DNA from: Isoetes taiwanensis
Taxonomy: Eukaryota; Streptophyta; Lycopodiopsida; Isoetales; Isoetaceae
Direction: 5' to 3'
DNA length: 64,000 bases
Assembly (NCBI GenBank): GCA_021234155.1
Contig: JAJEKV010000049.1
Location: forward strand, 4,523,001-4,587,000
The stretch's first letter is position 1. Each line of letters begins with the position of its first letter. The notes below the pieces were generated by a model, which saw only the letters and a list, made by a program, of their open reading frames with translations, was not told the DNA's origin and did no database searches. Position numbers and translations under genes: made by a program. This document shows positions 11,086 to 55,494 of this stretch, one piece after another.

Positions 11086-11170
11086 CTTGCCGAAGGCTTA
11101 TCACTAGGGTTTTTCCTCGAAAACCCGAAAGGGCGGGGTTTTTTAATCCCGGTGATAAGCTTTCGGCAGG
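11086..11170 (+). other. Structured element, copy in miniature element (outer stem, core, tetraloop)
   Basis: The flanks TGCCGAAGGCTTATCAC and GTGATAAGCTTTCGGCA pair over 17 positions with one wobble. They enclose the core GGGTTTTTCCTCGAAAACCC, loop GAAA, GGGCGGGGTTTTTT and CCCGG. The same core with different outer stems is present at 55412-55494 and, on the minus strand, at 12136-12218, 24461-24535 and (decayed) 20281-20350. Confidence 0.8.
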
Positions 11171-11246
11171 TACATCAGCCACTCATCTATTAGCATTGTA
11201 TTTTTTGGGGTCCAAATGATATAATTGGATTTCCCCTTTATTTTTT

Positions 11247-11277
11247 GTGGATAGTTCGCATGTGTGCGGCTATCCAC
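11247..11277 (+). other. Second hairpin with bulged T (miniature element)
   Basis: GTGGATAG, a bulged T, TCGCA, a short loop, TGCGG, CTATCCAC. The counterpart in the large element (55524-55560) has the same bulged T but a different, still paired, stem sequence. Confidence 0.65.
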
Positions 11278-11300
11278 TGTCCACCATTGTAGAAAATCTG

Positions 11301-11533
11301 TGAAAGTTTTCCAGAATGCATTGCATGGTGCTAAATGGTGTAGATGGGCACTTATGGACCCTAGTAAATATTATCCCCATGATATTAAACTGATGGGTAT
11401 ACCTTAGATAAGTCGAATATTTCCTTTAACTAAAAAATATAGTGGATTCTTCATCTCCACATCAAGTGCCAGGGTTAGGGTACCGACGGACAGAGGAGCT
11501 GGTCGCTCCCGGTTTGGTCCACGGCCCATGAAT
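11301..11533. other. Short flank with target-site duplication TGAAT
   Basis: No gene seen. The last five bases, 11529-11533 (TGAAT), are repeated at 28793-28797 immediately after the giant LTR retrotransposon and form its target-site duplication. Confidence 0.8.
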
Positions 11534-12058
11534 TGTAACGGACCTAGCAACCTAGCACCAACATTAAGATGTAAGTAACGTTGCCATTATATAAGAGTGC
11601 ATTTTCAATGGTACAATAAATGATTATATGCTAGGAATACATGCATGCAATGTGTCCATGCATACAGTGTGTGCATGCATGCGTGCAAGGGCATTGCTAG
11701 GTTATATAAGCGCAACAATATTATTCTTGAATTCTTGGGAAGGAGTTTTCCATGGGAAAGAAGTCTTTTATGTGATGGTGAAGCATTCGGAAGGAGATAG
11801 ATTGCAGATGGATTGCTGAAGGAGCGAGTTGCGTGCAGAGATCTGGGAGCGTTGCTGGAAGTGCAGAAGAAGCAAGCGGGATTTCCAGGTGGGGATCAAG
11901 CCTTACACCTGGGGTTTTCTAGTGTTTGTATATAGCTGTGTTGATTTAATAATGATTGCTTTGAACGTAGTATAATTGCCCTATGTAATGCACGCCAGGG
12001 TTAAGAAATAAGCAAAAATGTTAATATTTAGTTAGTAAGGTAATAATAAAGTATAAAG
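11534..12058 (+). repeat. 5' LTR of giant element, left part
   Basis: This aligns with 26948-27435 of the 3' LTR apart from about 40 extra bases after 11603. It contains two TATATAAG boxes near 11588 and 11702, plausible LTR promoter elements. It is interrupted at about 12058 by the 3' tail of the minus-strand LINE. The remainder resumes at 17794. Confidence 0.85.
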
Positions 12059-12135
12059 TTAAGAATAGAATAGAATAGAATAGTTTTTTTATCGTCCACT
12101 GAGACCAATCGGCCTATGGGACCCAGAAGGAGCGC

Positions 12136-12218
12136 AGCAAACTTATTACTGTCCGGGTTAAAAAACCCCCGCCCCGAAGGGTTTTCGAGGGAAAAACCGT
12201 GGCAGTAATAAGAATGCT
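12136..12218 (-). other. Structured 3' element of LINE copy 1
   Basis: CTTATTACTG (12142-12151) pairs with CAGTAATAAG (12203-12212), and AGCA/TGCT extends the stem beyond an internal loop. Read on the minus strand the core is GGTTTTTCCCTCGAAAACCC, loop TTCG, GGGCGGGGGTTTTTT, ACCCGG. The TTCG loop replaces the GAAA of the recombinase-element copies. Confidence 0.8.
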
Positions 12219-12790
12219 GTCAAACTGTACAAGTATACATCATCATGAAATAAATGTGTATGTATATGTCAAGTGCGTGCCCGAGGACATAGCTGATCTC
12301 GCATGTCCATGACCTCCTGAAGGTATGATCCTAGCATCCGTACGGATGCCGTGCTCAATGTCACATGTAGCGGCCGGCCGTGCCCCGACCAACTCAAAGA
12401 TAGCCGTCCGGATTTGATCATATCTTTGGGCAACTTTGAAGGGTATGAGATTCATCCTCAATGACTCCCATTTGGCAAAGATTGACAGAGCTCCGGCCCC
12501 GACGCGGGCTCACCAATCCATCCGCTCGTCTCAATTCGAAGATGATGTGCCCCTCGTGCGAATGGAGGCAATGAGTCCGCGTCTTTTCATGGGCAAGTGG
12601 GTGCGCAGTAGCATTGTGGGCCTCGTTCCAATGTGGGATTTATGTGGCGCTGGTAGTGTCTTTGTCTTGACCTGTTCAAGGGCGCCGGCATCCCAAAGCT
12701 TGCCGATGAAGCAAGCGCCAAGATATTGCCTCAAGCTATGGCGATCGCCTCTGTTTGCACATGTATGCACTGTGCTCTCGCACATTCCAT

Positions 12791-15611
12791 CTAGCCATCC
12801 ATTGAGCTCTCTTTTTTCCCTCCAAAGCAGCCTTGAGGCGTTGTGGCCCCATTGCCATGATATAAGCTAGTTTTGGGAGACGAAAGCATCGTCCATGTTG
12901 ACCACCTTCCGAAAATAGACAATGTGGCGATCAAGGGCAGCCCTATGAAGAGGCAAGAATCCCGTTTCCCAGTAGAATTTGATATGGGACTGTGGACTTC
13001 ACCCCTAGTGCTCGCATTACCAAGAAGGCTTTTCGACCTGCTCCAAGTCATTCCAAGTAGCGAGGGATACCATCGGGCCCCATACTTCCACCCCATTATA
13101 AAAAGGACAGGCTCCACTAAGACTTTGAACAGGTGTGATCGATGGGTCCAATCATACAACTCGCTCTATGACTATTGTTTTGCATTGCATATAGTGCTTT
13201 CCAAACTGCCAGTAACTCGTAGTCGTATGGATGTGTCCCAAAGTGCATAGTAGACGGAAACTCCACTCCCAAATATTTGTATGTGGATGCTACTTCCACA
13301 TTCGCGCCTCGATAGAATGAAGGAGGGGATCCTCTACCGTCGGAAGATGATATGAAAACCACCTTAGTCTTGGCCAAGTTGACGCCAAGATATCACGCTT
13401 GACAAAATGTGTCCGGGGCATCAAGAGTGTCGTTGCATGTCTGGCGGGTGTGTAAGCTAGAGGTCCACATCATCAAGATATATTAACCGCTTGATGATCC
13501 GGTAGAGAAGGTGAACCCCCGCCCCCCATTATCGCAAGCCGCCTCCAATTGATCAATGTAAAGCCCAAACAATGTTGGGGAGAGAGGGCATCCCCTGGCG
13601 AACCCCAATACTACTATCAAATGGTTGGTTTGTCTACCGCAACCGACCCGAGCATCTTTCATAAAGCTCGCATTAATCGTGATTACGCAAATCCACGGAA
13701 CCCCGGTACCGCCGCAATCTTGCCCATAGTTTTTCCCGAGGCAATTGTCAAATGCCTTTGCAAAATCCACGAAGCAACAATATAGATCCCGACGGCGGTT
13801 CCTGGCTGTCTTCAACCGTGAGCTCGCAATGTGAAGATGTGGTCAATGGTTGAGTGTCTGGTCTCAATCCCCGCCTCGGGTGAGGCCCTCAGATCTTCGC
13901 CGCTTTGCCTCGCCGACCAATAACCGCTGCTCGAGAATCCCAAAGAAGCAATTTTGCAAACACCGAACCCGACCATGATTGTTCGGTAATTGGTCAAGCA
14001 AAGCTAAGGGTCACCCGCCTTATAGATGGGAACAACTCGCTATTGGTCCATCGTGATCGGAAGCCTTCTCGTAATGCCTTGTTGAACAAGGCGGTCAAGA
14101 TCGGGTATTATGGACGGCCCCCGCCCACTTAAGCAATTTCGCCCGCATGCCATCCAGTCGGGGCTTTTCCATTGGCAAGACGTTGTAAGCCTTGTTCCAC
14201 GCCCCGAATGCGGATTTCCAAAGACCGGGCCTTCTTGCGAGGGGTAATGCCGCATGTGCACCCCGAGGGTCGATAGCTGTTGCAAGTATTGCCTCCACCG
14301 CCGGGGAGTGATGTTCCCCGTGGGTCATGATCGCTTTCTAAGAACCCTTCGCGGAAGGTCCCCGGGTGACGCTTCGAGGAGATAAAACATTTCCCTTTGA
14401 TGTGCTGCAATGTACGGCTTTCTTAGCTTTAAGGAAGACACGGTGATTGTCCGGACGGCATGTGGGCGTAAAAATGGTGCGTGGACTTGGCGGAGCGGCG
14501 TTTGTGTTCCTTGCACTCGCATCAAACCATTGATTACGTGGGAAGGTTGTGTTCCCGAGGTCCGTCGGGCGGCTTATCCCAAAGCATCTCTCTCGCCAAG
14601 CAGATCCTAAGCACATCGGTCACCGGCCGGGCTCATTTGCTCTAGTGTAGGATATTGCAAAATTTTGCCGTGTCATCTATAAGCATCGGGCATAAGCTCC
14701 CGCGATGTTCATAATCCAATCGCAGCTGAGGCATGTGAGAAATCAGGGTGGCACGGGGGTTCGCACAACCCGCCAAGCCAACTTCAAGTAAAGTGGTAAG
14801 TGGTCCGAGTCGATCTCTTCATCCCTATTAGTTGTTCCCACGGAAGTGCTTGACGACATGCATATCCCGCTTCGTGCACCAAAGACATAGTCCACCACAC
14901 TAGATCCTCCCCCCGGTTTTCCCGCCTACAAGTGCTTTTTGGTGGGTGGGCCGGCCACCGCGCCTATCCATTGCAGATTACCGTGTCAAAGATACCACAG
15001 AGCAAAAGCAATTGTCTACCATAGCGTGTGACCTGATTGTCATCCGATGTCCGTGGGCTGCCGCTTCGCAGGACGCAGCCTGCAATATATCATCACCAAG
15101 GGATCAAATCTCATGGGTTGTTCTACCCCGGCGGCGCATTGAAGTCTCCAAGGAGTATGACATCGCCTAACCGCTTATCTTTCGGGCCAGATGTCATCAT
15201 ATAGATCGACATAGGGGTCCAGCCTATCCACATCCGAAAGTGGGTGTGATAGAAGTTGCTTTCTCGCGATGTGGAAAGTAGCAAGCCGCCACAAAGAGGG
15301 GTCTCAAGCATCGCAGCTTTTGCACACGCACCCACAAGTACCGGTTGTGCTTTGTCCGCCTTGAACAAGGAAACCGACCGCGCAAGGCCGCTCGATAGTA
15401 GCAGTAACTCCCCCATGCCCCCGCTTCGTGCAATCATTGAAGATTGAGTAGCGCGGTATCCCCGCAAGTCGGGTATCCCCGTGGTCCCGCGATGCTCCCA
15501 TGTTTCCATAAGGAAGATCAGATCCATATCCGCAAAGAACAGAGTTGAGACTATCTCCCTTCGCCATATGGGAAGCCCCCGACAATTCCGGGAGACCGCG
15601 CGGAGGCACAA
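12791..15611 (-). pseudogene. LINE ORF2: APE endonuclease and reverse transcriptase, decayed
   Basis: This would nick target DNA and copy the LINE RNA in place. The endonuclease part (15611-15123) shows the N-terminal NCRGLP motif, the DLIFLMETWEH block and the C-terminal VILLGDFNAPPG typical of exonuclease-endonuclease-phosphatase folds. The RT part shows LYCCFVDFAKAFDN (palm, first Asp), GCPLSPTLFGLYIDQLE, and an IYLDDVDL active site near 13475, followed by TKVVFISS and YKYLGVEFP further on. The C-terminal part has VLVEPVLF and a diverged WGP block. Frame shifts lie between these blocks, and 13820-15100 is badly eroded. The second copy at 24463-26943 reads ICDDVDLLAYTPTDIQRHLD at the active site. 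Confidence 0.85.
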
Positions 15612-16188
15612 TTCCTATTTGTCGGCAGGGGCAGCTTGGGGATTCAAAGGGTGGCAGCAGAAGGGGGGATGGCGTAAGTAGAGGCAGCCCGAGATGTGCG
15701 AAAGCAAATGTAAGGTGAAGCAACTTGAGCAGGGCGCAGGCGGCTGTAGCAGGCTAAGAAGTGGCATGGTCGAGCTGCTGGAGGGTTAGCGGATTCGCAG
15801 CAAAGATTTGGCGGCTTGAAAATTTGCATCTTACCCCTAATCGGGCCCCCGCACTCCTCCCCTCGCTTTTAATGCTTTTAACTTTGGCCAACTCGCGGCT
15901 CGGTCTTCTTGTTGGGCTGGGGTCGTCTCGTCAACATACAAGGCAGTTCCCTTCACCGCTTTACCCCGGGCGTAGGATAGCCGCTTTCTCTGGCATCTCG
16001 CATCTTTGGAACGTGACTACCGTGGCGGTTTGGTTTGGGGGCCAAGCCATGGCGCTCGCCCTAATAATATGTATCGCACGGGGAATGTCATTCGAGCAAG
16101 AATCAACATTTGGAGCCGGTTAACGAGGTCCTCCCTGGCTCTTCTCGTCGGGCCACGTACCACCACATTGTGGCTTCTCCGCCTCGGC

Positions 16189-16851
16189 TCACGGAACTCT
16201 CGATTTTTGGGTCAATCCCGCCCGCACTTGAGGAGTTGTTTGTTGTCGGTGGAGCATAGGCCGTGGCCTACGTTGGGGCGGGGTGGCATAGAGTGGCTTG
16301 GGGTGCGATGTGCACGGTCTGGGCCGACACCTTTGCGGACTCTTGGGCGGGAGGTGGGGATCGCCGTGGCGGTGTATAGCGGTCTCTCCTTCTGGCCGGG
16401 AGCTTAGCTCCTGCTGAAATTGTTCTTGCCTTTTCAATTCACACATGCACCGCTGCAATTGCTCATGAGCCCTCGCATTGAGGCCCTTGCCTTGTTCGGT
16501 GATGGCTGCCCCGGCTCCCCGCACCTTTCGATCTCGAGCTGCGGAGCTATGCTCCAGATTCTGCAAGCGAGAGTCCAGCATAGGGTTGATTGCAGAGGCC
16601 ACTTCTTGTGTCTCAACCCTAGTTTGAAGGGCTCTCAATTGTGACTGGCTCTCTTCAAAAGCGACCTGAACTTTTCGCATCACAGTAGCAGCCTCCTCAG
16701 CCTCTGATTGAAGGCGGGAGATGGTTGCCATTGTCTCTTGCTCAACACATTGCTTTTCCTGTGTCATGGTTTCAATGGCGGTGGACATGGAATCCATGCG
16801 GGCCTGCATGTCAGCAAGACTCTTCTTGTCCTTCTGCCTTTCAGAGTGCAC
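16189..16851 (-). CDS. LINE ORF1-like coiled-coil protein
   Basis: A 220-residue open frame upstream of the endonuclease on the same strand. Residues 1 to about 130 are almost entirely charged and helical with heptad spacing (MQARMDSMSTAIETMTQEKQ and onward), a coiled coil. The rest is Pro- and His-rich and basic. Position and composition fit the RNA-binding, self-associating ORF1 protein of LINEs. I see no CCHC knuckle or RRM. The true start may lie further upstream, as the frame opens only 5' of a shift. Whether it was ever expressed in this copy cannot be told. Confidence 0.6.
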   Translation of the reverse strand: MHSERQKDKKSLADMQARMDSMSTAIETMTQEKQCVEQETMATISRLQSEAEEAATVMRKVQVAFEESQSQLRALQTRVETQEVASAINPMLDSRLQNLEHSSAARDRKVRGAGAAITEQGKGLNARAHEQLQRCMCELKRQEQFQQELSSRPEGETAIHRHGDPHLPPKSPQRCRPRPCTSHPKPLYATPPQRRPRPMLHRQQTTPQVRAGLTQKSRVP

Positions 16852-17417
16852 TAGGCGAAGGCCATCTTCTAGGTCTTCAGATCACGGGTCTCCATGCCAG
16901 AAACACGTTGTTTTTCAGTAGCCAGCTGCTTCTTGAGCAATTTGGGTGTGGAGGCCTGCATTTCCTCTGCCAAGTAAGCAATTCGAGCTTTGTTGCCCTC
17001 TGCCATTGCTTGAACCTCGTTTCGGTGCTCCTCAACCGCCACGGTTTGGTGGTGGTGAAGCCCGGATACGGCTTGCCGCTAGGCTAGAGTATCCGGTCAT
17101 AGGCCCTGTCGAGCTATATTTGTTGCACGAGACTTTGCCCCCTTCTCTTTTCAATGTGCACCTATCAATTTTGCCGGTGTCATCTGGTTCCGCGATTGGG
17201 GATGGCATCTATGTACTCTCCCAATAGAAGTTTTTTTGCCATATCTGCGCTTAGGTAGAGGGGCTAGCAGATCGCGCACCATCCACATGTATATCCGTGG
17301 GGTTGGATGAAGGGACGCAGGCTCGTCAAACTCTTCTATCACCGGAGTTGCCATGAATAGGGTGTCACCCCTGAGGCAGCTTGTCCGAAAGCCTCCAAGC
17401 ACTTTGATCACGCACAA

Positions 17418-17793
17418 CCTCTGTCCCTTTACGGGACGCGGGTCCGAAAGCTTCCACGTGTCGGGCGGTGCGCGGGCTTCCAAGTGCAAGAAGCAAGTGC
17501 AGGGGCTCTTTCACCTTACGGACACACAATGCGAAAAGTGTTCAAGTGCATAAATCAAGCGCAGCCTCAAGTTCAACCTCTACCACCTTACATGACATTT
17601 GTGCGAAATGAAACCTCTGTCCCTTCTGGGACGCCTTCGTCCAAAGCTTCCCGCGTCGGCAGCGCAGCTTCCAAGTGCAAGAAGCAAGTGCAGGCTCTTT
17701 CACCTTACAGACACCTGTCTGAAAGTGTTCAAGTGCATAAATCAAGCGCAGCCTCAAGTTCAACCTCTGCCACCTTACAGACACTTGTCTGAA
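17418..17793 (-). repeat. Tandem 5' monomers of the LINE (period about 196 bp)
   Basis: CCTCTGTCCC at 17418 recurs at 17614. Following blocks such as AAGTGCAAGAAGCAAGTGCAG, TTCAAGTGCATAAATCAAGC and CAGCCTCAAGTTCAACCTCT occur twice in the same order. They lie at the extreme 5' end of the minus-strand LINE, where some LINEs carry promoter monomers. The second monomer is incomplete. Confidence 0.75.
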
Positions 17794-19090: not shown

Positions 19091-19092
19091 GT

Positions 19093-19104
19093 TGGTATCA
19101 GAGC
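19093..19104 (+). other. Primer binding site, initiator-Met tRNA
   Basis: TGGTATCAGAGC two bases after the LTR end is the complement of the 3' end of plant initiator-Met tRNA and would prime minus-strand cDNA. Confidence 0.9.
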
Positions 19105-20202: not shown

Positions 20203-21327
20203 CTTAGAATAGAATAGAATATGATTTTATCGTACACGGAGACCAACTGGCCTATGGGACCCAAGTACAAAGAGAGAGAAAGCAAGCGATACTACCGGGA
20301 TTAAAAACCCTCACTCGGGGTTTCGGGGAAAAACCTTAGTAGCAATAAGGATGCCGACATACCGCACGCTTATATACATAATCACAAGTACGTGAGGTTA
20401 ATGCCTGGACAGGGGGGCATAACCGAAGTCCGCACAGATCCATTACCTCCCGGAGGTACGATCCCAACAAGCCTACAGAGGAGGCGGCTCGAGAGCTCAT
20501 GCAAGGCCCGATGGGGGCATAACTAACCGAAAGCATACCGAGCCCGGATATGCTCGTGACACGGACAGGCCCGGAGGGCGTGACTTTCATCCTCAATGGC
20601 GCCTCGCTGACAAAGATCGACGGACTCTATCCTCACGCTGCTCCCCGAATCCATCTCCCCGCCTCAATGCGGAGGTGGTGTGCACTGCGCGAATGGAAGC
20701 AATCACCCCTGCTTTTTTCATGGGTAGATGGGTGCGCAGTAGTGGTGTGGGCCCCTCGTGAGCATGGGATTAACTCGCCGCCGATAATTTGCCACCTTGA
20801 CATGTGATGGGGCCTGATCCCAAAGCTTGGCCATGAAGCAAGCATCCAAGCATCGCTTCAAAGGCCAAGCGTTCCTTCGGTGTATGCACCGGTCCACATC
20901 CGTGCCTCGCACATTCCATAGCGAGAACCACCGGGCTTGCTTGTCTTTCCAGCAGGCTTTGAGTCGCCCGGGCCCATCGCCACCGCCAAAGCAAGGTTGG
21001 GCAGCCGGGCTTCATCCATAGCCACCACCTTCCTCGGAAGTAAATAATGTGACGTTCCAAATGACCCCCTCAGAATGGAAGGAAGCATGTCTCCTGGAGC
21101 AAGATCTGATATGGGACCGTGGATTTCACTCCCAGTGCCCGGGCCAAGAAGGCCTTCTGTACCTGCTCTAGATCATTCCAAGTGGTGAGGGATATCACTG
21201 GCCCCCACACTTCTGCCCCATAGAGGAGGACCGGTTCAACCAATGCCCTGAACAAGTGTGCCTGGTGACCCCATGCATACAGCTCTGCCTTGTGACTGTT
21301 AATGTAATAGAAGAGTTGTAAGCACAT
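20203..21327 (-). mobile_element. LINE copy 3, 5'-truncated
   Basis: On the minus strand the 3' tail of GAATA units lies at 20203-20222. Before it come the GGGTCCCATAGGCC box and a decayed version of the structured element (20281-20350). Further upstream a C-terminal ORF2 segment reads LVEPVLLYGAEVWGPVISL near 21245. It is homologous to, but more diverged from, copies 1 and 2, so it is a different subfamily. It is truncated at about 21327. Confidence 0.8.
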
Positions 21328-22319: not shown

Positions 22320-22410
22320 AATTTTTGGAGAATGAGAATGAGAATGATTTTTTATCGTCCACTGAGGCCAATCGGCCTATGGGACCCATAAGGAGCGCAG
22401 CAAACTTATA
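22320..22410 (-). mobile_element. LINE 3' tail remnant (copy 4)
   Basis: GAGAATGAGAATGAGAATGA followed by TTTTTTATCGTCCACTGAGG and the CCAATCGGCCTATGGGACCC box is the reversed 3' end of the same LINE family, with only about 90 bp retained. Its tail unit is GAATGA, a variant of the GAATA unit of copies 1 and 3. Confidence 0.8.
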
Positions 22411-23666
22411 ACCATCATTCAATTATTTTGGGATTATGTCTATTCCAAAATCGCACCAAATAAGCATTATTTTTAGAGCATTTAGTGTTTTTCAATTCTA
22501 TTTTTTGCATTTCGAAAAGTGTAGTTTATGTTGCATATTTGGTTAATTATTTGTATTTACTTCCAATAAGGCACATGAAGGACTTCCAATAAGGCACATG
22601 AAGGACTTATTTTCTTGAAATTACATCGATAGATCATAGCATTAAAACAACAAATATACTTGAAATAACGATTTTTTACAAGAAATAGTAATTTACTTAT
22701 CGAAATCAAGCATATATTTACAATATATAAAAATAAAATTACTCCAAATATTCACATAATTTTAACAATCTTAAATTTAAAGTTATGATATTTTAGGCAA
22801 ATAGCCTTGAATATCTGTACAACTAATAAAGGAGACGTCCTCTAAAATGCTATTTGCCTTGAATATCTGTACAACTAATAAAGGAGACATCCTCTAAAAT
22901 CCTTTGAAATAGAAAAGTCTGATAAAATGAAATCGCCCCACGCGCGATTTCGCAAACTGTAGACAACAATAAAGCTCATAACTGCATCCCCAGTTATCCT
23001 CCATCTGCACGGCTGGGCAGCTTCTTCACTAAGCTTGGCTCCATATCTTCAACTGCAGACGTTTCAGGCTAGTTTCCATAGTTGCAACAATAGATTTTCA
23101 TTTAATTGTCAGCCAATATACTATGGCATGTGTTTTGTTTAATAACTGTACCAAGACCTTCCAAAGAACTAAAGCACTAGCAGTTTAGAATTTAGCAAAT
23201 CACAGAGAACATTTTGTCACAATTTAGCAACCACAGAGAAGATTTTGTCATAATTCCATGATAATCTACTCCAACTAGCAATTTAACTTTTGAAGAAACC
23301 TGTTGTAAAAGGAATTCACAGCAAGGCCTCAGTCCTGTTATGCCCACAAGAAACTCCAAATAATTCCAGCATTCCAATAAAAGAGAAGCTCCTTGCTGTT
23401 TCGATGCACAATAAGCCAAATTCAATAACCTAAAAGTGAAAGCAGCAACAAAACTTGTAGATAAGACCCAAAGAGAAGGCTTATACCATTCTGAATTGAT
23501 AAAGAAGCATCCCTATTTGGCATGCACAACAATCGATTCTCTTGCATCCAGAATAAGTAAGAACTGCTCTGTCTTTTGCACTGAAATATGATATTGCTGC
23601 TTCTGTATCCTGCATCCGAAATAGATAAGAGCTGCACAAGCCTTAGAAAGAGGCTAAGCCACGAAT
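22411..23666. repeat. AT-rich interior with two short tandem duplications
   Basis: A 24-bp unit (CTTCCAATAAGGCACATGAAGGA) occurs twice at 22561-22610. A unit of about 58 bp containing GCCTTGAATATCTGTACAAC occurs twice at 22803-22918. No gene is seen. Confidence 0.6.
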
Positions 23667-23885
23667 CTATGGGTAAACAAGGCAGCAGGCAACATTAATT
23701 GGAGGATTTGCCCCGTTGTGCAGATATTCTAGTCCACATGCAATCTGAAAGGCAATTCCCATGCGCAGTTGCCAATTTTTGAGTGATTCTTGGTCATGAA
23801 GCTGCTTTTGCAGATTTCCGTTACACATATACTCAAACAGGAGTATGTGTTCTTCTGAAACAATTGGAAGAACAGAGTTTATCAA
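23667..23885 (-). pseudogene. Receptor-like kinase fragment, captured
   Basis: The minus strand reads EEHILLFEYMCNGNLQKQLH, then LKNWQLRMGIAFQIACGLEY and LHNGANPP. These are kinase subdomains V to VIa of a plant receptor-like kinase. The HRD catalytic loop that should follow is absent; the sequence ends at what may be an old exon boundary. No other kinase segment is nearby. It lies inside the giant LTR element, so it is probably a captured host gene fragment. Confidence 0.7.
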
Positions 23886-24460
23886 GCAAGGAAGTGTTTA
23901 GACACAAAGGAAATCTGTCTAGACTATAACTTACCTTTCTCATCACAGAAGCCCAGATATCCTTTGTATCCTGTCTTCTTTATTACCTCCTTACCGGAAT
24001 AAGCAGTACCTTAGGTCAACTAGAACTTATCATCCTTTCTTGCCTCAGTCGAAATGGGCTGGAATGTGCCTCAGCCTCTTACCTCATCCTTCCTTAGTCT
24101 TCCTTAGGGTCGAAATGGGCTAAGCAGGCGCCATAGCGTGAAGAGACCATAGCCTGAAGAACAGGCGCCATAGCCTGAATGAAAGGCCTTGAGTTGGCTA
24201 CCGCCGACGAGGGGCGCAGCAGAGAAAGAGAAGGAAAAGAGAGGGGAAAAGCAGCGATAAAAAAATGAAAAAAAAGGGAGTGTGAGGAAAATGAAAAGGA
24301 CGAAGAAGGGGAAAGTGGAAAAATTAAGGGGAAACTGGCGGGCGGGCGGGAAGAGAAAAAAAAGTGGCGGAAGAAAAAAATGCCTTAAAGCAACGGAAAC
24401 TGCGCAAAAAAAAAAAAACTCCCAAAATTAAGACATATTTTTAAAATAATTGAATGCTGG
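23886..24460. other. Purine-rich segment, no gene
   Basis: At 24190-24420 the plus strand is strongly purine-rich (GAAAAGAGAGGGGAAAAG-like), with GGCGGGCGGGCGGG near 24339. It could be the relic of a polypurine tract region, but it is 2.5 kb from the 3' LTR. Confidence 0.35.
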
Positions 24461-26943
24461 TTTTATTACTGTCCGGGTTAAAAAAACCCCCGCCCCGAAG
24501 GGTTTTCGAGGGAAAAACCGTAGCAGTAATAAGAATCTTTGTCCAAACCGCACAAGTATACATCAATGTTTATATACATGTCAAGTGTGTGCCCGAGGAC
24601 ATAGCTGATCTCGCATGTCCATAACCTCCTCGAAGATATGATCCCAAAGACCCGCACGGATGTCCGTGGCTCAATGTCACATGTAACGGCTGGCAGGGCG
24701 ACCAACTCAAAGATATCGGTCCGAATTTGATCATATCTTTGGGCAACTTTGAAGGGTATGAGATTCATCCTCAATGACTCCCATTTGGCAAAGATTGACA
24801 GAGCGCCCGGCATGGCTCACCAATCCATCGCCTGTCTCAATTCGAAGATGATGTGCCCCCGTATGCGAATGGAGGCAATGAGTCCGCGCTTTTCATGGGC
24901 AAGTGGGTACCTTGGTAGCATTGCGGGCGTGCTCCAATGTGGGATTTATGTGTATACCGGTAGTGTCTTTGTCTTGACTGTTCAAGGGCATTGGCATCCC
25001 AAAGCTTGCCGAGGAAGCAATCGTCAAGATATTGCCTCAAGCTATGGCGACCGCCTCTGCTTGCACATGTATGCACCGTGCTCTCGCACATTCCATCTAG
25101 CCAAGCATTGAGCTCTTTTTTTTTCTCCAGCAGACCTTGAGGCGCTGCGGCTCCATTGCCATGATATAAGCTAGTTTAGGGAGACGAGCATCGTCCATAT
25201 TGACCACCTTCTGAAAATAGACAATGTGGCGATCAAGGGCCGCCCTCAAGAGGCAAGAATCCTGTCTCCTGCAGTAGAATTTGATATGGGACTGTGGACT
25301 TCACCCCTAGTGCTCGTACTAAGAAGGCTTTCTGGACTTGCTCCAAGTCATTCCAAGTAGCAAGTGATACTACTGGGCCCCATACTTCCACCCCGTATAA
25401 AAGGACAGGCTCCACTAAGACCTTGAACAAAGTGGATCGATGGGCCCAATCATACAACTCCCGCTCTATGACTATTGTTTTGCATTGCATATAGTGCCTT
25501 CCAGCCTGGCCACTGTGAGTCGTATGGATGTGTCCCAGTGCATAGTAGAAGGAAACTCCACTCCCAAATATTTGTATATGGATGCAACTTCCACATTTTG
25601 GCCTCGGTAACTGAAGGAGGGGACCCTCGGTTGATGTGAAGATGATATGAAAACGACCTTAGTCTTGGCCGGGTTGACGCGCATATCGCCGCTTGGCGAT
25701 GTATCGTGTCCGTGGCATCGAGATGTCGTTGTATGTCCGTTGGTGTGTAAGCTAGGAGGTCCACATCATCGCATATATTAACCGGCTCGATGATCCGATA
25801 GAGAAGGTGAGCTCCATCGCCCCCATTATCAAGCAAGCGGCTCTCCAATTGATCAATGTAAAGCCCAAACAATGTTGAGAGAGAGGGCATCCCCGACGAA
25901 CCCCGATCACGCTATCAAATGGTTGGTTTTGTCCGCCGCGAACCGACCCGAGCATCTTTTCGTATAGCTCGGCATTAATCGTGATTCGCAAAATCTACAG
26001 GGAACCCCTACCAATTGCGGTCTTACCCATAGTCTTTCCCGAGGCACGTTGTCAAACGCCCCGCAAAATCCACAAAGCAACAATATAGATCCCGACGGGC
26101 GGTTCCGGCCGTCTTCAATCGAAGTTCGAAGCGTGAAGATGTGGTCAATGGTTGAGTGTCGGTCTGAATCCCGCCGGGGAGGGGCCGCACCTCTCGCCGC
26201 CTACCTTGACACATCAAGCCGCCTTTCGAGAATCCCAAAGAAGCAATTTTGCAAATACCGAACTGACCATGATTGTTCGATAATTACCGGGCATGCCTTA
26301 TATATGGGAACAACTCGCTATTGGTCCACCGCAATGGAAACCTTCTTGTAATGCCTTGTTGAACAAGGCGGTCAAGACCGGTATTATGGACTGGTATCCG
26401 CCCTCGGTTTTCGCCGCGCAAGTGCTCTTATGAAAGTGGAAGGCCTTTGTGCTAGTCCATTGCGATTACTGTGTCAAAGATACCGCAGAGCAAAAGCAAC
26501 TGGTCGACCATAGCTGCGGTGACGATTGTCATCCGATGTCCGCGGGCCAAGCTCCTTCTCGCGGGGATGCAACCGCAATATATCATCGATCAAGGGATCA
26601 AATCTCATGGGTTGTTCTACCCCAAAGGCGGCGCGATTGAAGTCTCCAAGGAGTATGACAACGCCTAACCGCTTATCTTTGCCGTATGTCATCATATAGA
26701 TCGACATAGGGGTCCAGCCTATCCACATCCGAGTGGGTGTGATAGAAGTTGCTTTCTGCATGTGGAAAGTAGCAGCCTGCCACAAAGAGGGGTCTACTAC
26801 TGCAGTTTTGCACACGCATCCACAGGTACCGGTTGTGCTTGTCTGTCTTGAACAAGGAGATTGATTGTGCCAAGGTTGTTCGGTAGTAGCAGGCAACCCC
26901 CCCATGCCCCCGCTTTCCTGTACAATCATTGAAGATTGAGTAG
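24461..26943 (-). mobile_element. LINE copy 2, with internal deletion
   Basis: This is homologous to 12143-15460 of copy 1 on the same strand. The structured element is at 24461-24535. RT blocks include ICDDVDLLAYTP (near 25760) and YKYLGVEFPSTMH. The endonuclease C-terminus VVILLGDFN lies near 26665. Relative to copy 1 about 0.8 kb is missing at about 26400. The copy stops within a few bases of the 3' LTR (26948) and has no tandem tail at 24460, so both ends look cut rather than produced by normal insertion. Confidence 0.82.
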
Positions 26944-26947
26944 AGAC

Positions 26948-42750: not shown

Positions 42751-43510
42751 TCCCTCTATCTATGAAGTTTCAAAGGAAGATGTTACAATCAGTCTCTCCA
42801 CATCTGCACTCATTGATAGTATACAAAGTCTTCAAAAAGAGAGCGATGAAGTTAGCCTTTGATTCATGGTAGGAAAAACATTTTCATTACGGCCAGATCA
42901 TTCGATTTGCCAATGCTTATTTGAGATTTTTGTATTAATAGGGTTGCAACAACAGCTTATTGAGACTCCGGTAAATCACAACTGGATCCTCGCCACTCAA
43001 CTGGATTTCAAATGACTTCTACCATCATTCTGAGTAATGGCTTCTACCATCATTTTGAGTTTATTGCATCTCTTGAAGTTGCTTGGCTTTTCTTTTTTGG
43101 GCTAGGTTGTTATCCCATTCATTGTTTCACGAAAAAAAAGCAGCTCTTTTAAATATCAATTGTACCTCTATTTGAAATACTGATTCTGGCAATATTGTTT
43201 CTCAAAAGCAAACAAACATGGAGAAGCTACTCAAGTTAACCTGGAGCAAATACATCCATTTGAGTTTAGAGCCTTGAAAATGCTATGCAAGCAACATGCA
43301 CATATCATGACACTCGGTATTTTCTGCTTTTGAGTTTTTTTTTTTTTCTTTTCTTTTCCTGAAAGACCAAGTTTGAGAATCTATGGGAGGGTCCCTTTGA
43401 AGTCACATCTCCAAGTGGCACAAACTCTTAAAACATGACTATTCTCCATTCATACCTTGATTTTATTCCACCATTCCACATAGCCCAAGCTGCCCTTCAT
43501 ATCTTCAGAA

Positions 43511-44134
43511 TGTAAGAATGGAAAAATTAATCATCACATATTGGGAGCAGTAACACAGTAGAAAGATCCTAAACAAGCAGACTTTGATCACTTAGAATGT
43601 GGCATAATGGATATACATGATCTTTCATGTGGATCTTGACTATAGAAAAGGAAGACTATAATAGCTTAGTGGATAAGCTAATATTAAACGAAAAGATGAC
43701 CATTGGGGTTATTTTTATCTTATCCTTATAAATTGTTTCTGAGTATAGACGAGGAGGTTTAGGCGCCATATTAGGAGCCAAATTGTGTTTGAAAGAGACA
43801 CGATTGCATCTGTCGATTGCCGACTCCAAGTCGGCCGGATTGATGCAGATAAAAGATAAGTTCTAAGAAGTATAGATGCAGGCGGGAGCATTCCGGAAGG
43901 CAGAAGGACCATTCCGATCCATATTAAGCCCAACTTGAGTTGGGGCTTGGGCTTTTGTGATTATTTGGTTAAATATATGCTGCTACAGTGATTCCGATAA
44001 AAAATATCCAATGGTTTACTATGATTAATATCTTTATTGTTCATATGGTCTATTGCCTACTAAAACTTGTTGATCATAGATATCTCATTGCATGAATAGG
44101 AATTAGTTTTCTTAGAAGAACTAGTTTTGTAACA
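43511..44134 (+). repeat. copia 5' LTR (plus strand), 624 bp
   Basis: It begins TGTAAGAATGG and ends TTTTGTAACA, the same length and sequence family as the minus-strand LTR at 7666-8289. It is preceded by CAGAA (43506-43510) and followed by a primer site. Only about 30 bp of internal sequence beyond the primer site look like copia (ATGTCCATTCGTTTCGGAGC). This is the missing 5' end expected for the pol and 3' LTR half at 7.7-9.3 kb. Confidence 0.9.
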
Positions 44135-44147: not shown

Positions 44148-44174
44148 AGGAAGATGTCCATTCGTTTCGGAGCA

Positions 44175-48886: not shown

Positions 48887-48952
48887 TTTATTTTTTTATT
48901 TTTTTATTTTTTTATTTTTTTATTTTTTTTATTTTTTTATTTTTTTATTTTC
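48887..48952 (+). repeat. T-rich microsatellite, (TTTTTTAT)n-like
   Basis: About eight units of six to eight Ts plus A in a row, ending at TTTTCGC. Confidence 0.9.
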
Positions 48953-49019
48953 GCTTAAGCGAAACCTCTGTTTCGCTTACGCGAAAAACGTTTCACGTAA
49001 GCGAAACTGAGGTTTCGCT
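48953..49019. repeat. Palindromic GCGTAAGCGAAAC/GTTTCGCTTACGC cluster
   Basis: GCTTAAGCGAAACC, GTTTCGCTTACGCG, CGTAAGCGAAACTG and GGTTTCGCTTACGC follow one another, so both orientations alternate and several hairpins can form. Related words are scattered over 9901-10210. Confidence 0.85.
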
Positions 49020-49206
49020 TACGCAAAAAAAAAAATTCTGGCCGGCGAGGGAAAAATACGGGAAATACATTTTTTTTCCTAAAAGTACGTATTTTTGGAC
49101 TTTATACGTACAGGAAAATAATTCTGTACGTACAGAACCTATCCCTGAGTGGAACTTGCAGGGAAACCTTGCTTGCAAAATAATTCCCCATCTTCTTGAA
49201 TGCCCT
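49020..49206 (-). repeat. Right arm of the dispersed inverted repeat (partner 9698-9900)
   Basis: Reverse complement of 9698-9900 with few differences, including TTCTGTACGTACAGAA at 49121-49136. Confidence 0.85.
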
Positions 49207-49299
49207 AGGTGGGGATTTTTTGCCGATCTATCGACCTATTTTGCAAAATACAGAAATAATTTGCAATATATCTATAACCATCATTGTTCCTCATTAAAT

Positions 49300-49427
49300 C
49301 CCATCGATCCGAGCCATCGGATCGCCATTCTGGGAAAGGACGAGCCCCTATATTAGGCTAGTTCCATTCGCAGACCGGTTATCGGCGTCTTCTCACAGCA
49401 GCATTTTCTTCGTTCTCGTGGCTTCCC
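49300..49427 (+). repeat. Repeat A1
   Basis: It starts CCCATCGATCCG, then GCCA-looped hairpin GATCCGAGCCATCGGATC, then ATTCTGGGAAAGGAC, an inverted match to the B end (GTCCTTTCCCAGAAT). The shared block runs to GTGGCTTCCC. Confidence 0.9.
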
Positions 49428-50064
49428 ATGGCTCTTCGATCGATGGATTTCTTCTGGAGCTTCTCCTTCGGCTCATGTCTCCACGTCCTCGCTACCGGCA
49501 TCTTCTTCGCAAGTTGTCTTACCATTCTTTGGAAGGTACGCCTTCGTCTTCTCTTGTTGATTATGCCTGGAATTCTGGATCGGTGCTAGCGTAGATCTTG
49601 TTTTTCTATTTGGCTTTCGCTTGCAGTGGGTGCTTGCATGAGGAGTTGCTATGATTCTTATGGATTTCGTGATTCTATTGTTTTCGGGTTTCGCATGTTG
49701 GATCGCCATTTCGTCTTGCAGCTTTTGTGTTAGTTTGTTGTTTTCTCCTTAGTGCAGCGTTCGCATGTTGAATTTCCCATGCATTTTCTTGGTTTCTTTG
49801 TCTCTTGTTGGAGGTTTTCTGTGGAGTCGGGCCTCTGTTGCTGGCTTTTGGTTCAGGAATTGCTGGACTCTTGGGCCATTTATCATTTTTCCGTTTGCTC
49901 TCTCGCCCATTTTGCATCATAGACGGCGATAGGTTTTCGTCAAGGAGCCCTTCGGTTTTGGCACAGGCATCCGCTTCCGGCCATCCTAGCTTGGAAATTG
50001 ATATCTATGCTTGGGCATGGAGCCCGATCCCAGCCCTGGTGGTATGCCTTCGCTCCCCTGTTCG

Positions 50065-50230
50065 CCCCATCCCAGCCACATTCCTCTGTTTGCCCGATCC
50101 CGGCCATGCTCCTCTTGGTGGGTAGCTCCCTGCTCCATCCTTGTCTGCCCCATCCTAGCCACGCTCCTCTGTTTGCCCGATCCCAGCCACGCTCCTCTTG
50201 GTTGGTTCGCTCCCTGCTCCATCTTTGTCT
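50065..50230 (+). repeat. Tandem duplication, unit about 83 bp
   Basis: CCCCATCC at 50065 and 50148 starts two similar units containing CTGTTTGCCCGATCCC and CTCCTCTTGGT. It lies in the long leader of the recombinase element. Confidence 0.8.
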
Positions 50231-51359
50231 CTGGGTTCTGTGCGGCGGATTCATCCTTAGCTATGTGTTTTCTGGATTTTTTCTCTGCTGTGCACTTGGG
50301 TCTCTTATTGGCGCTCCTCCTTCCGATCTTTTCACCGTTTCTCTTCTTTCCTGATTTTGTTTTTCTGTTAGCGACTGGTTTTTTTTGGCATCATCCTTTG
50401 CTTCATCACTTCTTCTTGTGCTGGCTGGTGAATAGGGTTGGCATCGTCCTTTGCTTGCTGGCTGGTTCCGCTCCAGGGGCTCTTAGTCTATTTATGCTGT
50501 TCTTACCATGTCTTTGCTGTATTCTGCGAGGTTATCTTAGGAGCATCTATTTTCATCAGGTTTGTGGCAGCCCCTTTTTTTGCTTGTGCATGTTGTTCTG
50601 TCCATTCGCTGCTGCATGCGTTTCTAGCCCTTCAATCGGCTCCTCTGTTCCTTGGTACTCGCTGTTGCATGCTTTTCTACCCATTCGTCTGCTCCTTCTT
50701 TTCTACCCATTCGTCTGCTCCTTCGTCTCTTTTTAGTCTGTTCTGCTCGGTTTTCTTTTCTTAGTTCTTGTTCTTCATTCTTGTTGCTTCCTTTGCTGGT
50801 CTTCTTAGCCGCCATGCCGTTTCCTTGCCCCCTTTGTTCTGCTCAGATGTTTCCTCTGGGATTTTTCCCTCCCTTTTCACCTCCGGAGATGGCGATGACT
50901 TCCCACCATCTTCGTCTTGCATTTGGCGGCGTTGCATCCGGTGCTAGCAATGCTTTTCTGAGTTGTCGGGAGGACATCGTTCGTCTGCGGAATACTTTCG
51001 GACGCTTCGCCTTTTCTTTGCTTTTTAGCCCGGTTCGTCGGCGTATTCGGGCTTATCCGGAGGCTTGACCCGGCTTCGTGCTTTCGTTTTTTTCTAGGGG
51101 ATGTTATTTTGTTGTGGGGTTTTTCGTCTTTGCGTCCTATTCAGCTGAAGGAATACTTTTTCATCATGACGGAGTATCCCCCTCAGTTCCTTCCAACTTA
51201 TCCGGCTCTTTCGTTGGGGTTGCTCGCGTGAGTATCTTTGTTCCGGGGCGTCTGTCACCTCTGTCCTTGGGCACAATAGTGCGGTTTCCTTTTTTTGTTG
51301 AATAATATGCTCTCAAGCATTTGTCTTGTGTTTGTTTTTCATCTTTTTTTTGGATATTT

Positions 51360-51850
51360 AATAAGAATGTGATTTCTCTTGGGGACTTATTATGGGGTGC
51401 TCTTTATAAGTGATTTCTTCCAAAGCGTTTTTGATGGGTTCCCTCGTTATTTGTTGTTTTCTCTTGTAAGGTTATTTGTTGTTTTCTCTTGTAAGGTACT
51501 TACGGATTTATCATGAGGTGCTCTTTATAACTGATTTTTCTTCCTAAGTGTTTAATGGCTCCCTTTTTTGTTGCTTTTTCTTGTAAGGTACTTATGGATT
51601 TATAATGAGGTGCTCTTTATAAATGATTTTTCTTCCTAAGTGTTTCGTGGGTTCCCCTTTTATTTGTTATTTTTTCTGGTAAGGTACTTATGGATTATAA
51701 TGGGGTGTTCTTTATAAGTGATTTTTTCTTCTTAAGTGTTGTTCACGGGTTCCCTCTTTATTTGTTGGTTTTTCTCGTAAGGTACTTATGCATTTGTAAT
51801 GGGGTGCTCTCGTAAGGTACTTGTGGATTTATGATGGGGTTATTATGCGA
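51360..51850 (+). repeat. Tandem repeat, unit about 92-98 bp, four to five copies
   Basis: AAGGTACTTATGGATTTATA-like starts lie at 51493, 51585, 51681 and 51779, with a shortened unit at 51814 and a degenerate one before 51493. Each unit contains GGTGCTCTTTATAA and CCTAAGTGTT. It is internal to the recombinase element. Confidence 0.9.
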
Positions 51851-53038
51851 TTCGAGCTACTGTGTTTTCATCTTTAGGATTCTTTTCCTTTTTTCGTTTG
51901 GTATTGTGCTTTAGAACCTGTTGTGTTTTTACGGCTATTCTCGTTTCTGTTTTAGTGGCATTATCTCATGAGTTGTTTTTTGTCCATGTTTATCTATTTT
52001 TTTGCCTTTGTTATGGGTTTGTTCTTTTTTCTTTTTGTTATGCAAGTGGATCGTGGGTTGCTATTGTATTTGCGAGGGTTTGATGGGTTCTACCTTACAT
52101 GTGTTCTATTCTTTTATTTCTTCTCGTTTGTCATATTCTGTTGTGAGTTTGATATCTATTTCGGTTTATGCGTTATTGGCCTCATTTGATGGGTTATGCT
52201 TTGTCTTTTTGTGTTTACCCAATTTTGTATGTTGTTATGTGTTCCTTGTTTTTTTGGTATTTTGATCATTCCTGACATCTTGTTTGTCGGTTCTTGAATG
52301 CCCCGTCGCACTTTGTTTTTCGGCAATCTATGTCCGATTGCATTATCTTTTTTCTGTCTATGCATTTTTATGTTTCTATAGGTCGCTTTTTTCTCTTGGT
52401 CATATTATTTCCGTTACTTGTTACTTATGGTTTATCGTGATCGTTTTTCTTTTCGGGCTCCCTGTTGCCTTCCGCTGGGGTCTTAGCGTCGTTCACGGGC
52501 TTCGGTCCGTCGCCATTCCTTCGATTCCTCATTAGGGCGGCGTGCCTTTCTTTACGGTTATTCTTGTTTTCTAATGTTCTTCTTTTTTGGTCATTGGCGA
52601 TCGGAGTCCCCTCAAAGCACTTACGGCTCTTCTTCCGTCGCTTTCTCCGCGTAGCGGCTAGCGGCTTGGCGGTACTTCGGCGTCAACGTGAAGCTTCCCT
52701 TTCACTCGAGCCTGACTCTTCGGACCCGGGTTCCCTTTCTCCTCCTGCTTCTCCGATTTCTGTCGCATCTTCTTTCTCTTTTTGGTCCCCTCGGCCTTTC
52801 TTTGCTCAGTCCCTCTTCTCGATTGGTCCGCTTTTACGTATCTCCTACTCGGATGGCTCCTCTGTTTTCTTCTCTTCGCATGTATTTTAAAACGGCCCAT
52901 TTTGTGTCTTCAGCGCTGTTTCTCTCCTCGAGTTCACTTTCGGTTTGCTACATGAGCTTCAGGCGACAACGGGCTACACTCCGGGCTCTCCGGACTTGAT
53001 GGCCGCCGGTTGTCGGTCGGACTTCGGCTTGAGCATTT

Positions 53039-53655
53039 CCAGCGGGACACCCGGGGGGGCGGGCCGCGCGTCCTACTCCTTCTTTTGACCGCGACTCCAT
53101 GCGGCATTATTACGAGTTTGCGTCTGCCATGGACACTCGTTTTCGATGGATTCATGGCCGTCTTGCGATGTTGGGGGTTGCCATTCCAGATGATGTGCTG
53201 CAGATGGTAGAGGAAGGTAAGCGTTTGGCGGATCAGGAGATGAAATTTGTTCTTATCGCTGATCAACATGGTTATGACGTCGCCTTGCACTTTAGTGAGT
53301 CCCCTAGTCTGAATTTTTCTTCGGAGGAGTCCAAGCGCTTGCATCAGGCTAAAAATTAAGCCGGGGGAAGCGTCTATCTTCTTCTCGCCCTTCGCCGTAC
53401 CCTTCCTCTGCTTCTTTTTCTGCTTCTTCCCCTGCCACTTCTTCTACTCTTCGTTGTACTTTTTGTGGTCGCTTTCGCCACACTGCCGACAATTGTTTTC
53501 GTCGCCAGTTCTCTCATAATGCCGTTCCTCCCCTTTCCAACCCTTATTTTTCTCAAACTGTGCCTCTCAATCCTACTCCTTTGTTGGCCGTTCCTCCGCC
53601 ACCTCACAATTCGGCCCTTTCTCCGCCTGTGTTGCCTCGGCCTTGGTCTTCTTGA
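53039..53655 (+). pseudogene. gag-like protein with CCHC zinc knuckle (recombinase element)
   Basis: A frame running through 53099-53359 (MRHYYEFASAMDTRFRW and onward) is followed, after a frame change near 53360, by a Ser/Pro-rich linker and a Cys-x2-Cys-x4-His-x4-Cys knuckle (CTFCGRFRHTADNC, 53455-53496), then a Pro-rich end at about 53655. Gag proteins of retroelements package the RNA, and the knuckle binds nucleic acid. The frame may start further upstream: 52465-52890 is open and Ser/Pro-rich but in another frame. The knuckle spacing is canonical. The frame change makes this copy non-functional. Confidence 0.7.
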
Positions 53656-53665
53656 GTTGTTTTAG

Positions 53666-54700
53666 TTGTTCTGCAATATCTGTTGTATTTGGTTTTTGAT
53701 CATTAATAAAGCATTTTTGGTTTTTTATGTTGTTGTGGCAGCTACTTCTCGCTTGCTCACCCCCCAGGAGGTTCCTTTTTTCTTTGCCACTTTGCCTTTA
53801 GTTTTTTCCTCTCGTGCTCCGTCTACTCTTTTGGCTTATTTTGCTATGTTCCGCCGCTTTGTTGCTTGGTGTCGTCTACATGCTGTTCCTTCTCTTCCAG
53901 CTTCTCCTTTTGTTGTTGCGGCCTTTTTTGCTTCTCTTCATCATCCTCAGATGTCAGCCTCCTCCATTTCTTAAAACCCCGTGACCATATCCTTTTTTCA
54001 TCAACTTTTCAACCTTCCCTCCACGCCATTTTACCTTTACCCTCGTTGGCTCGTCGGTCTACAACCGATCCACGCTTCGCCCTCCTCGTACCTTTCTTCC
54101 TCTCACTGCCTCGGCATGTTCGGCTCGATTGTTCTCGCTTTGCGCATCCACGCGCTTCTTTTTCCTCTCGGCCCGTGGCTATCGTTTGTAGTTTCCTTTG
54201 CGCTTTTTGCGCATCTCGGAGCCCTTGCCCTCAATTGGCGTGATCTTTCTTTTTCCTTATCGCATGTGGATCTTCTTATTCGTCATTCAAAGCGTGACCA
54301 ACTTGCCCTCGATCATCACGATTTCTTTAGCCAGCTTGCCGCCGTTCGCATGGCACGCTTCTATCCTTGGCGCTGATTTCTACCGGTTCTTATCATCTCC
54401 TTGATCCTCCATCCGGCGGCCCCCTTTTTCGTTCATCTCCTTCTTCTTTGCGTCCTTTGTCTTATCCGACTGCTCGGGGGTGGTGGCGGGAGTGTCTTCT
54501 TGCTATCGGCTTGGATCCATCCCGCTATGGTACTCATTATTTCGTCGGTGAGGAGGGCTGCGGCTTCGGGGCGTTCCACATGATGCTGCGCGCACTCACG
54601 GTCGTTGGCGCTCCTCTTCTTCTCATTCTCGCTATGTGCTTCGCGATCCTACTCAACACTTGGAGGTTTCGCGGCGCTTGGGTTTATAGTGAAGGAAGTC
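53666..54700 (+). pseudogene. Tyrosine recombinase of the split-repeat element
   Basis: It would integrate a circular DNA intermediate by strand exchange. The N-terminal core-binding part reads RAPSTLLAYFAMFRRFVAWC and VPSLPASPFVVAAFFASLHH (53810-53950), typical of the SAM-like domain. After a frameshift the catalytic part shows NWRDLSFSLSHVDLLIRHSK and RDQ (Lys motif near 54290), and then, in broken frames, THYF and RRAAASG (His-x-x-Arg region, 54532-54575) and HGRWRSSSSHSRYVLRDPTQ (54597-54650), which carries the Trp/His position and the nucleophile Tyr at 54633-54635. The first catalytic Arg region (near 54215) is itself out of frame. At least three frame shifts are present. The family is secure; the copy is dead. 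Confidence 0.85.
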
Positions 54701-54709
54701 CTTTGGTAG

Positions 54710-54750
54710 TCGGCCGGTTTTTGTGTCTCTCGCGAGTCCTTTCCCAGAAT
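54710..54750 (+). repeat. Repeat B1 (41 bp)
   Basis: TCGGCCGG...GTCCTTTCCCAGAAT, identical by eye to B2 at 55613-55653. It ends directly at A2. Confidence 0.9.
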
Positions 54751-54873
54751 CCCATCGATCCGAGCCATCGGATCGCCATTAAGGAAAGGGCGGCTATATT
54801 AGGCTAGTTCCATTCGCAGACCGGTTATCGGCGTCTTCTCACAGCAGCATTTTCTTCGTTCTCGTGGCTTCCC
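54751..54873 (+). repeat. Repeat A2
   Basis: Second copy of A1, with the TCTGGG of the terminal inverted arm replaced by AAGG, so its match to the B end is partly lost. Confidence 0.9.
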
Positions 54874-55411
54874 TCCCTTCCCGCCCTGCTGCTGGGGCGT
54901 GTATGTCTTTTTCATTTGTATTGATATTGGTTCTTGCTCTTTTTGTTGTTTTTCACTTATGGGTGTCCTTTTTTCTTGTTGCTATTTCCTTGGCATTTTT
55001 CTGTGTTTTTCTAAAACTTGCGGTGGTCTTTATTTATTTCCACCTCGAGGGTGATGCATCTTTATAGCTTATGTTTTCCACCCGCTGGGTGATGCTTTTT
55101 CCACCTTCTCGGTGACGCGATATGCTCTTTTCCTGTCTATTTTTATGCCTTATATTTTCCGGCTTTCTTGATGCAGATTCTTTTTATGGATGGGCTTGTT
55201 TCTCTAACTCTTTACGGGTGTTCTTTTTGGAGTTTTTTGTGTATTGCAGGATTTTGCTATCTTCCACCAGCTTTTGGGGTCCTGGTGTTTTCCATTCCTC
55301 ATTCTCGTTGTTCCATGGGGTTTCGCGGTTGTTTGGGGTCGTGCTTTCGGTTTGCCTTCGCGCTCGTCTGGTTTCTCTGTTCTCTAGGCAATCCATTCGA
55401 GGTCGGTGGCG
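54874..55411. other. Unique 3' region of the recombinase element
   Basis: Pyrimidine-rich and non-coding. It contains TTCCACCCGCTGGGTGATGC (55077-55096), which also occurs in the miniature element at 10929, showing that the two share a 3' region beyond the A repeat. Confidence 0.6.
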
Positions 55412-55494
55412 ACCATTTCTCATTAGGGTTTTCCTCGAAAACCCGAAAGGGCGGGGTTTTTTATCCCGATGAGAACTTGTCGCCATTGCCCTCT
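55412..55494 (+). other. Structured element (large recombinase element)
   Basis: TGGCGAC, a 3-by-3 internal loop, and TTCTCAT pair with ATGAGAA and GTCGCCA. The core is GGGTTTTCCTCGAAAACCC, loop GAAA, GGGCGGGGTTTTTT, ATCCCG. The outer stem sequence differs from the copy at 11086-11170 but keeps pairing. Confidence 0.8.

Follow-up and report, generated by a model that had tools for sequence, protein, structure and literature searches.

A likely element for nuclear expression shared by LINEs and split-repeat tyrosine-recombinase elements of Isoetes taiwanensis

Introduction

An element for nuclear expression (ENE) takes up a poly(A) tail, or another A-rich tail, into a U.A-U triple helix, and such elements are described in plant and fungal transposon RNAs and in MALAT1 (PMC12846552, PMC11411715). 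In the Arabidopsis element Evade, the motif melted in two steps in vitro when A20 was present, a behaviour abolished by mutations of the loop and of the G-C borders, and its deletion lowered RNA stability, extrachromosomal DNA and copy number (PMC12501189). Here we analysed 64,000 nucleotides (nt) of the Isoetes taiwanensis genome (contig JAJEKV010000049.1, positions 4,523,001 to 4,587,000, forward strand; hereafter the window), in which a sequence-only reading had placed five copies of one structured element shared by long interspersed nuclear elements (LINEs) and tyrosine-recombinase elements. All five were found at those places and on those strands, and the fold common to the LINEs and the split-repeat tyrosine-recombinase elements is, in our judgement, quite likely an ENE.

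Results

Position and anatomy of the shared fold

Two copies lie on the plus strand in recombinase elements 1 and 2, at 11086-11170 (YR1) and 55404-55488 (YR2), and three on the minus strand in LINEs, at 12136-12218 (L1a), 24463-24534 (L1b) and 20286-20350 (L1c, a diverged copy). The fold is in the sense orientation relative to its host element in all five copies. It stands near the 3' end in the four copies whose element has a known 3' end, at a distance of about 76 nt in L1a and about 168 nt in element 2; the right end of the element carrying YR1 was not found.

RNAfold gave a common layout in three of the five copies, as first bounded, consisting of an outer stem, G-C pairs, a U-tract opposite a U-tract, an upper stem, an AAAA bulge and a CCC-tetraloop-GGG hairpin. 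In YR1, which has a long outer stem and a minimum free energy of -48.7 (z -8.17), the U-tracts are at 11110-11114 and 11139-11144, the upper stem at 11115-11119/11134-11138, the AAAA bulge at 11120-11123 and the CCC-GAAA-GGG hairpin at 11124-11133. YR2 has its U-tracts at 55429-55432 and 55457-55462; it had been placed at 55412-55494, where it is present but folds only slightly better than shuffles (z -1.28), whereas the full outer stem extends over about 55404-55488 (z -4.98). The z-scores of L1a and L1b were -5.61 and -2.88, respectively, and the 3' foot of the outer stem of L1b is cut off by a DNA transposon. L1c, first bounded at 20281-20350, was matched by the five-copy covariance model (E 1.4e-13) and keeps the U-tracts and the adjoining G-C pairs, but its apical part is altered and alone it folds no better than chance (z -0.16).

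The U-tracts measure 4-5 and 6-7 U in four of the five copies and 5 and 5 U in L1c; both are kept (4-5 and 5-7 U) despite change in the outer stem, and the G-C pairs adjoining the loop are invariant (alignment pairs 17-61, 18-60, 25-48 and 26-47 are G-C in 5/5 copies). The upper stem is CCUCG/CGGGG and in L1a and L1b one pair longer (CCCUCG/CGGGGG). A constant core had been proposed, but only YR1 and YR2 contain the literal GGGCGGGGTTTT; L1a and L1b have one more G and, opposite to it, one more C, a matched insertion on the two sides of the upper stem, and 20281-20350 is without such a string. The AAAA bulge is retained in the four intact copies. A tetraloop particular to each family was confirmed for GAAA, present in both recombinase copies, and for TTCG in two of the three LINE copies, but not in the third. 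The proposed pairing of AAAACCC with GGGGTTTT had to be discarded, as forcing it costs 3.2 (YR1), 3.0 (YR2), 4.9 (L1a) and 3.7 (L1b) kcal/mol against the ENE fold, and its covariation was no better than that of shuffles (102 of 500 as high).

Homology of the copies

Local alignment of the 3' regions of the recombinase elements and the LINEs recovered the fold over 41-60 nt (E 1.4e-4 to 3.9e-8). All other matches were 11-24 nt long (best E 0.003), indicating that no LINE flanks stand beside the fold in the recombinase elements. A covariance model of the three LINE copies alone retrieved both recombinase copies (E 4.7e-10 and 1e-7), the next match having an E of 4.5. The five-copy model scored its own copies at E 1.9e-24 to 1.4e-13, with 56-93 bits versus at most 13.6 bits for their reverse strands, and found no sixth copy in the window, where the other matches with E<1 were the reverse strands of two copies (0.35 and 0.43), followed by matches of at least 1.1. 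A structural descriptor, written after the copies were seen and requiring an internal loop that holds two U-tracts and is closed by G-C-rich pairs, matched exactly the four intact copies on both strands of the window and gave two matches in total in 20 resampled windows. Exact-pattern scans of prokaryote genomes and viral contigs gave no match, as expected for a plant element.

The LINE and recombinase copies are therewith supported as a single homologous structured element. We read their likeness as homology and not as convergence, because the AAAA bulge and the apical hairpin are common to the four intact copies and a minimal ENE needs neither.

Covariation of the stems

The outer stems had been said to differ in sequence and yet to pair each with its own partner, and this was mostly so by RNAfold and in the five-row alignment, in which 91.4% of cells pair. 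Double changes were found in 10 of 22 pairs (mean of shuffles 5.7, 0 of 500 as high), and the covariation score was 0.405 versus 0.203 in shuffles (0 of 500 as high) and at most 0.159 in slid structures, which had at most two double-changed pairs; by the tool's own warning, these controls are inflated by the relatedness of the rows. All ten double-changed pairs fall in the outer helix, and the upper and apical helices hardly vary. The covariation claimed for an element common to LINEs and recombinase elements was accordingly borne out for the outer stem, and it is for this stem only that conserved RNA structure was found.

The LINEs and their 3' termini

L1a is the long LINE copy (12064-17792, minus strand), with a coiled-coil-like frame and weakly matched endonuclease and reverse transcriptase (RT) pieces; PF00078 (20.3 bits, cut-off 29.6) and PF03372 (18.8 bits, cut-off 24.5), the domains looked for in an APE-type non-LTR retrotransposon, were both below the Pfam cut-off, and the copies are broken. 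Its ends are known because the repeat that it entered has an uninterrupted copy at 26948-28700. Comparison with this copy shows that the insertion terminates on its 3' side in (TATTC)n, lacks poly(A) and is free of long terminal repeats (LTRs). By eye, the junctions of L1a compared with 27435-27437 had no evident target duplication and perhaps one base lost. The L1a 5' end (17360-17792) seems to contain tandem repeats (CAAGTTCAACCTCTRCCACCTTACA..), which are perhaps promoter monomers. L1b (about 22329-26945, minus strand) contains a transposon, and L1c extends from 20205 to at least 21300 on the minus strand. All three LINEs have short tandem repeats (pentamer or hexamer) at their 3' ends, and an A4-A7 run stands just before the terminal repeats near each LINE end.

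A conserved 3' terminus, all copies of which are on the minus strand, occupies 12066-12139 in L1a (GGGTCCCATAGGCC.., CGATAAAAAAA and pentamer repeats), 20205-20285 in L1c with the same anatomy, and 22329-22412 in L1b, where the inserted transposon parts it from the ENE. It is common to 3/3 LINEs (three matches versus none in 100 shuffles) and absent from both recombinase elements, and in the comparison of L1a with L1c it ranks first (0.86; next 0.76) among the 50-column windows listed for the last 1060 columns. Since the terminal hairpins of the LINEs fold no better than shuffles (z -0.30 and -0.97), it is by its conservation and place that this terminus would perhaps be the recognition end of the LINE RT. 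The transposon in L1b (22413-24462) is a DNA transposon of about 2.05 kb with inverted ends of about 35 nt (AACCA.. / ..TGGTT) and an apparent ATAA target duplication, and lies inside the 3' foot of the L1b ENE stem.

The tyrosine-recombinase elements

Element 2 (49297-55653, plus strand) has split direct repeats, with repeat A1 at 49297-49427, the B1-A2 junction at 54710-54880 and B2, its right end, at 55613-55653. Gag-like frames at 53033-53652 carry a zinc-knuckle-like CxxC..H..C (by eye) and gave no Pfam match, and broken tyrosine-recombinase frames lie at 53735-54690. Taken separately, the latter had no Pfam recombinase match; the read-through recombinase gave one integrase match only (E 6.7e-4), and its N-terminal part was 43% identical over 75 amino acids to a PF00589-bearing protein. 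Note that no RVT match was found in the 12 frames scanned out of 19 plus-strand frames of at least 90 amino acids inside element 2, which is a broken copy. Element 1 is an internally deleted copy with A1, B1 and A2 repeats at 10329-10863 (plus strand), and its B2 was not found.

The order A1..B1-A2..B2 together with a tyrosine recombinase suggests that these are PAT/Ngaro-type elements. Split repeats are carried by Ngaro elements. They are also described for PAT elements (PMC3266345). In both recombinase elements a second stem-loop stands 3' of the ENE, at 55523-55561 (z -4.72) and 11247-11277 (z -4.26); the stem sequences differ, a TAGT..CGGCTA core is common by eye, and the stem-loops may mark the RNA 3' end.

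Surroundings in the window

The window is transposon-rich. Two near-identical copies of a pogo/Tigger-type transposase, about 4.2 kb apart, lie at 1-6243, and among the best 120 of 407 relatives of this transposase the named ones were Adiantum ferns (top among the named) and some animals. Gag-like frames with zinc-knuckle-like stretches at 58527-62633 are surrounded by direct repeats, each at least 300 nt long and separated by 3.8 kb, and together these are perhaps an LTR element. A 627-nt inverted repeat pair (7666-8292 and 43508-44134) is 97% complementary over a distance of 35 kb. Relatives of a 421-amino-acid frame were sought and none was found, and the tRNA scan gave none.

Discussion

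Because U-tracts in an internal loop, G-C borders, a place near the 3' end and the sense orientation are the anatomy of an ENE, the fold probably stabilises the RNAs of the LINEs and the recombinase elements. The element would act as an imperfect hairpin with facing U-tracts in its loop, a C/G-rich stem above and G-C pairs and a long variable stem below, and a downstream A-rich stretch would dock in this loop, forming a U.A-U triple helix there. The docked stretch would be the poly(A) tail or, in the LINEs, possibly the encoded A4-A7 run beside the 3' end. By analogy with work on other ENEs, the triplex would hide the RNA 3' end from deadenylases and exonucleases, which may raise RNA abundance and in turn transposition. 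The sequence-only reading had suggested a host-read signal for 3' processing or export; this came close, but a cis-acting stability element that clamps the RNA tail suits the anatomy better.

Several observations weigh against an ENE. In the RNAfold structure two U of the 5' tract are paired with AA (GGUU/AACC) below the loop, so that the drawn loop is smaller than an ENE triplex loop when no A-tract is present, and a docking A-tract would have to displace these two U-A pairs. Relative to the ENE fold, a two-hairpin alternative gains 0.3 kcal/mol in YR2 (wider bounds) and loses 0.7 kcal/mol in YR1, and L1c prefers another fold (-14.0 versus -11.7 kcal/mol when the ENE fold is forced). The covariation comes from only five related rows, from which the tested structure was itself drawn; three apical pairs and three of the five upper-stem pairs are invariant and can give no covariation signal, and further pair types (14 versus 12.8 in shuffles, 186 of 500 as high) were not above shuffles. 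In identity windows, the fold region is conserved no more than much of the LINE sequence: the identity is 0.93 between L1a and L1b, with 72 of 1122 upstream windows equally high, and 0.58 for both L1a/L1c and L1b/L1c, with 660 and 637 of 1122 windows as high, by which comparison a conservation of the fold region above the rest of the LINE was rejected. Rfam at gathering scores returned no family in the window, and on 55300-55600 alone only five chance-level matches (E 2.7-9).

A further point on this side is that the DNA copies of the LINEs have short tandem repeats, not poly(A), at their ends, so that a poly(A) tail on the LINE RNA is only presumed. What the ENE holds may be poly(A) lying past the repeats of the LINE RNA, or else the encoded A-run. 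It is conceivable, though we consider it rather doubtful, that the ENE is a portable cassette of about 60 nt passed between LINEs and tyrosine-recombinase retroelements that would work in LINEs without copied poly(A), either by clamping the encoded A-run or by sequestering poly(A) in the fold and thereby leaving the short tandem repeats as the starting point of target-primed reverse transcription, which would link RNA protection to the choice of the priming site.

Among other explanations, the fold might be an RNA signal of a different kind, namely one for export or 3' processing, or a switch by which the RNA alternates between the ENE and two-hairpin folds. The near-equal energy of the two-hairpin fold in both recombinase copies would suit a signal of this kind, as would the AAAA bulge, which lies outside the minimal ENE and is kept in the four intact copies. 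However, the two-hairpin fold is 5.8 (L1a) and 4.8 (L1b) kcal/mol worse than the ENE fold and is therefore not the shared fold, and it is by a U/U loop bordered by G-C pairs that ENEs are recognised, so we regard another signal as unlikely. We give a still smaller chance to the second proposal of the sequence-only reading, a tag by which recombinase elements lacking an RT borrow that of the LINE, as short interspersed nuclear elements (SINEs) share LINE 3' ends. The fold is indeed common to both kinds of element and near the 3' end, and the scanned frames of element 2 had no RT match. The idea is nevertheless not supported, since the conserved terminus at the insertion end, present in 3/3 LINEs, is in 0/2 recombinase elements, which thus do not share the terminal 3' sequence of the LINE in the manner of a SINE-like parasite. 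Furthermore, the fold sits inside the LINE end, element 2 terminates in its own split repeats and not in LINE repeats, and a relative with its own RT could serve the recombinase elements instead.

The least credible of these explanations is a plain insertion of a LINE 3' end into the recombinase elements, or a DNA-level palindrome such as a recombination site or a miniature inverted-repeat transposable element. The outer stem of YR1 does resemble a DNA inverted repeat. However, the similarity between recombinase elements and LINEs ends at the edges of the fold, with no LINE flanks, which argues against the LINE 3'-end insertion that the sequence-only reading had named as a refuting outcome. 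Moreover, in 5/5 copies the U-tracts belong to the host element's sense strand, reverse strands score near noise under the model, the stem has compensatory changes, and the fold is not at the termini of element 2.

If the ENE reading is true, a tail-clamping stability device is present in LINEs and in recombinase retroelements, and the same module in unrelated elements would point to exchange between transposons or to a strong shared pressure from host RNA decay. What makes the case notable is an ENE common to two retroelement orders, including LINEs whose DNA ends in tandem repeats instead of poly(A); such repeat-tailed LINEs pose a directly testable question, that is, which A-tract is held. 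We regard the fold as a known RNA device newly encountered here, the anatomy and homology of which are well supported and the function of which we infer.

Tycowski, Shu and Steitz reportedly described ENEs in plant and fungal transposon RNAs in 2016. None of the titles listed by the literature searches concerned ENEs of LINEs or of recombinase elements, or ENEs in ferns; the 2016 study lies outside this coverage, so we do not claim that the present case is unpublished. As others describe them, the plant and fungal transposon ENEs share with the present fold a U-rich internal loop, G-C borders and, within a plant, a place close to the 3' end of the RNA of a transposon, whereas the hosts here are LINEs and split-repeat recombinase elements. 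Hairpins of the UnaL2 type in LINE 3' tails, which are shared with SINEs, are likewise a structured 3' region common to different kinds of element, but here the shared part is not terminal and the sharers are not SINEs. An ENE loop that can accept a DNA-encoded A-rich tract is known from MALAT1 and MEN-beta; the MALAT1 3' end is buried in its triplex (PMC11411715), whereas the LINE A-run here is short (4-7 A) and followed by tandem repeats. The ENE of Evade (Copia93) resembles the present fold in its U-tracts flanked by G-C pairs and its location in the 3' region of a retroelement, and differs in having four U-rich tracts where there are two here (PMC12501189). A further difference is that the intact copies here keep the AAAA bulge together with the CCC-tetraloop-GGG hairpin at the apex, and they reside in different host elements.

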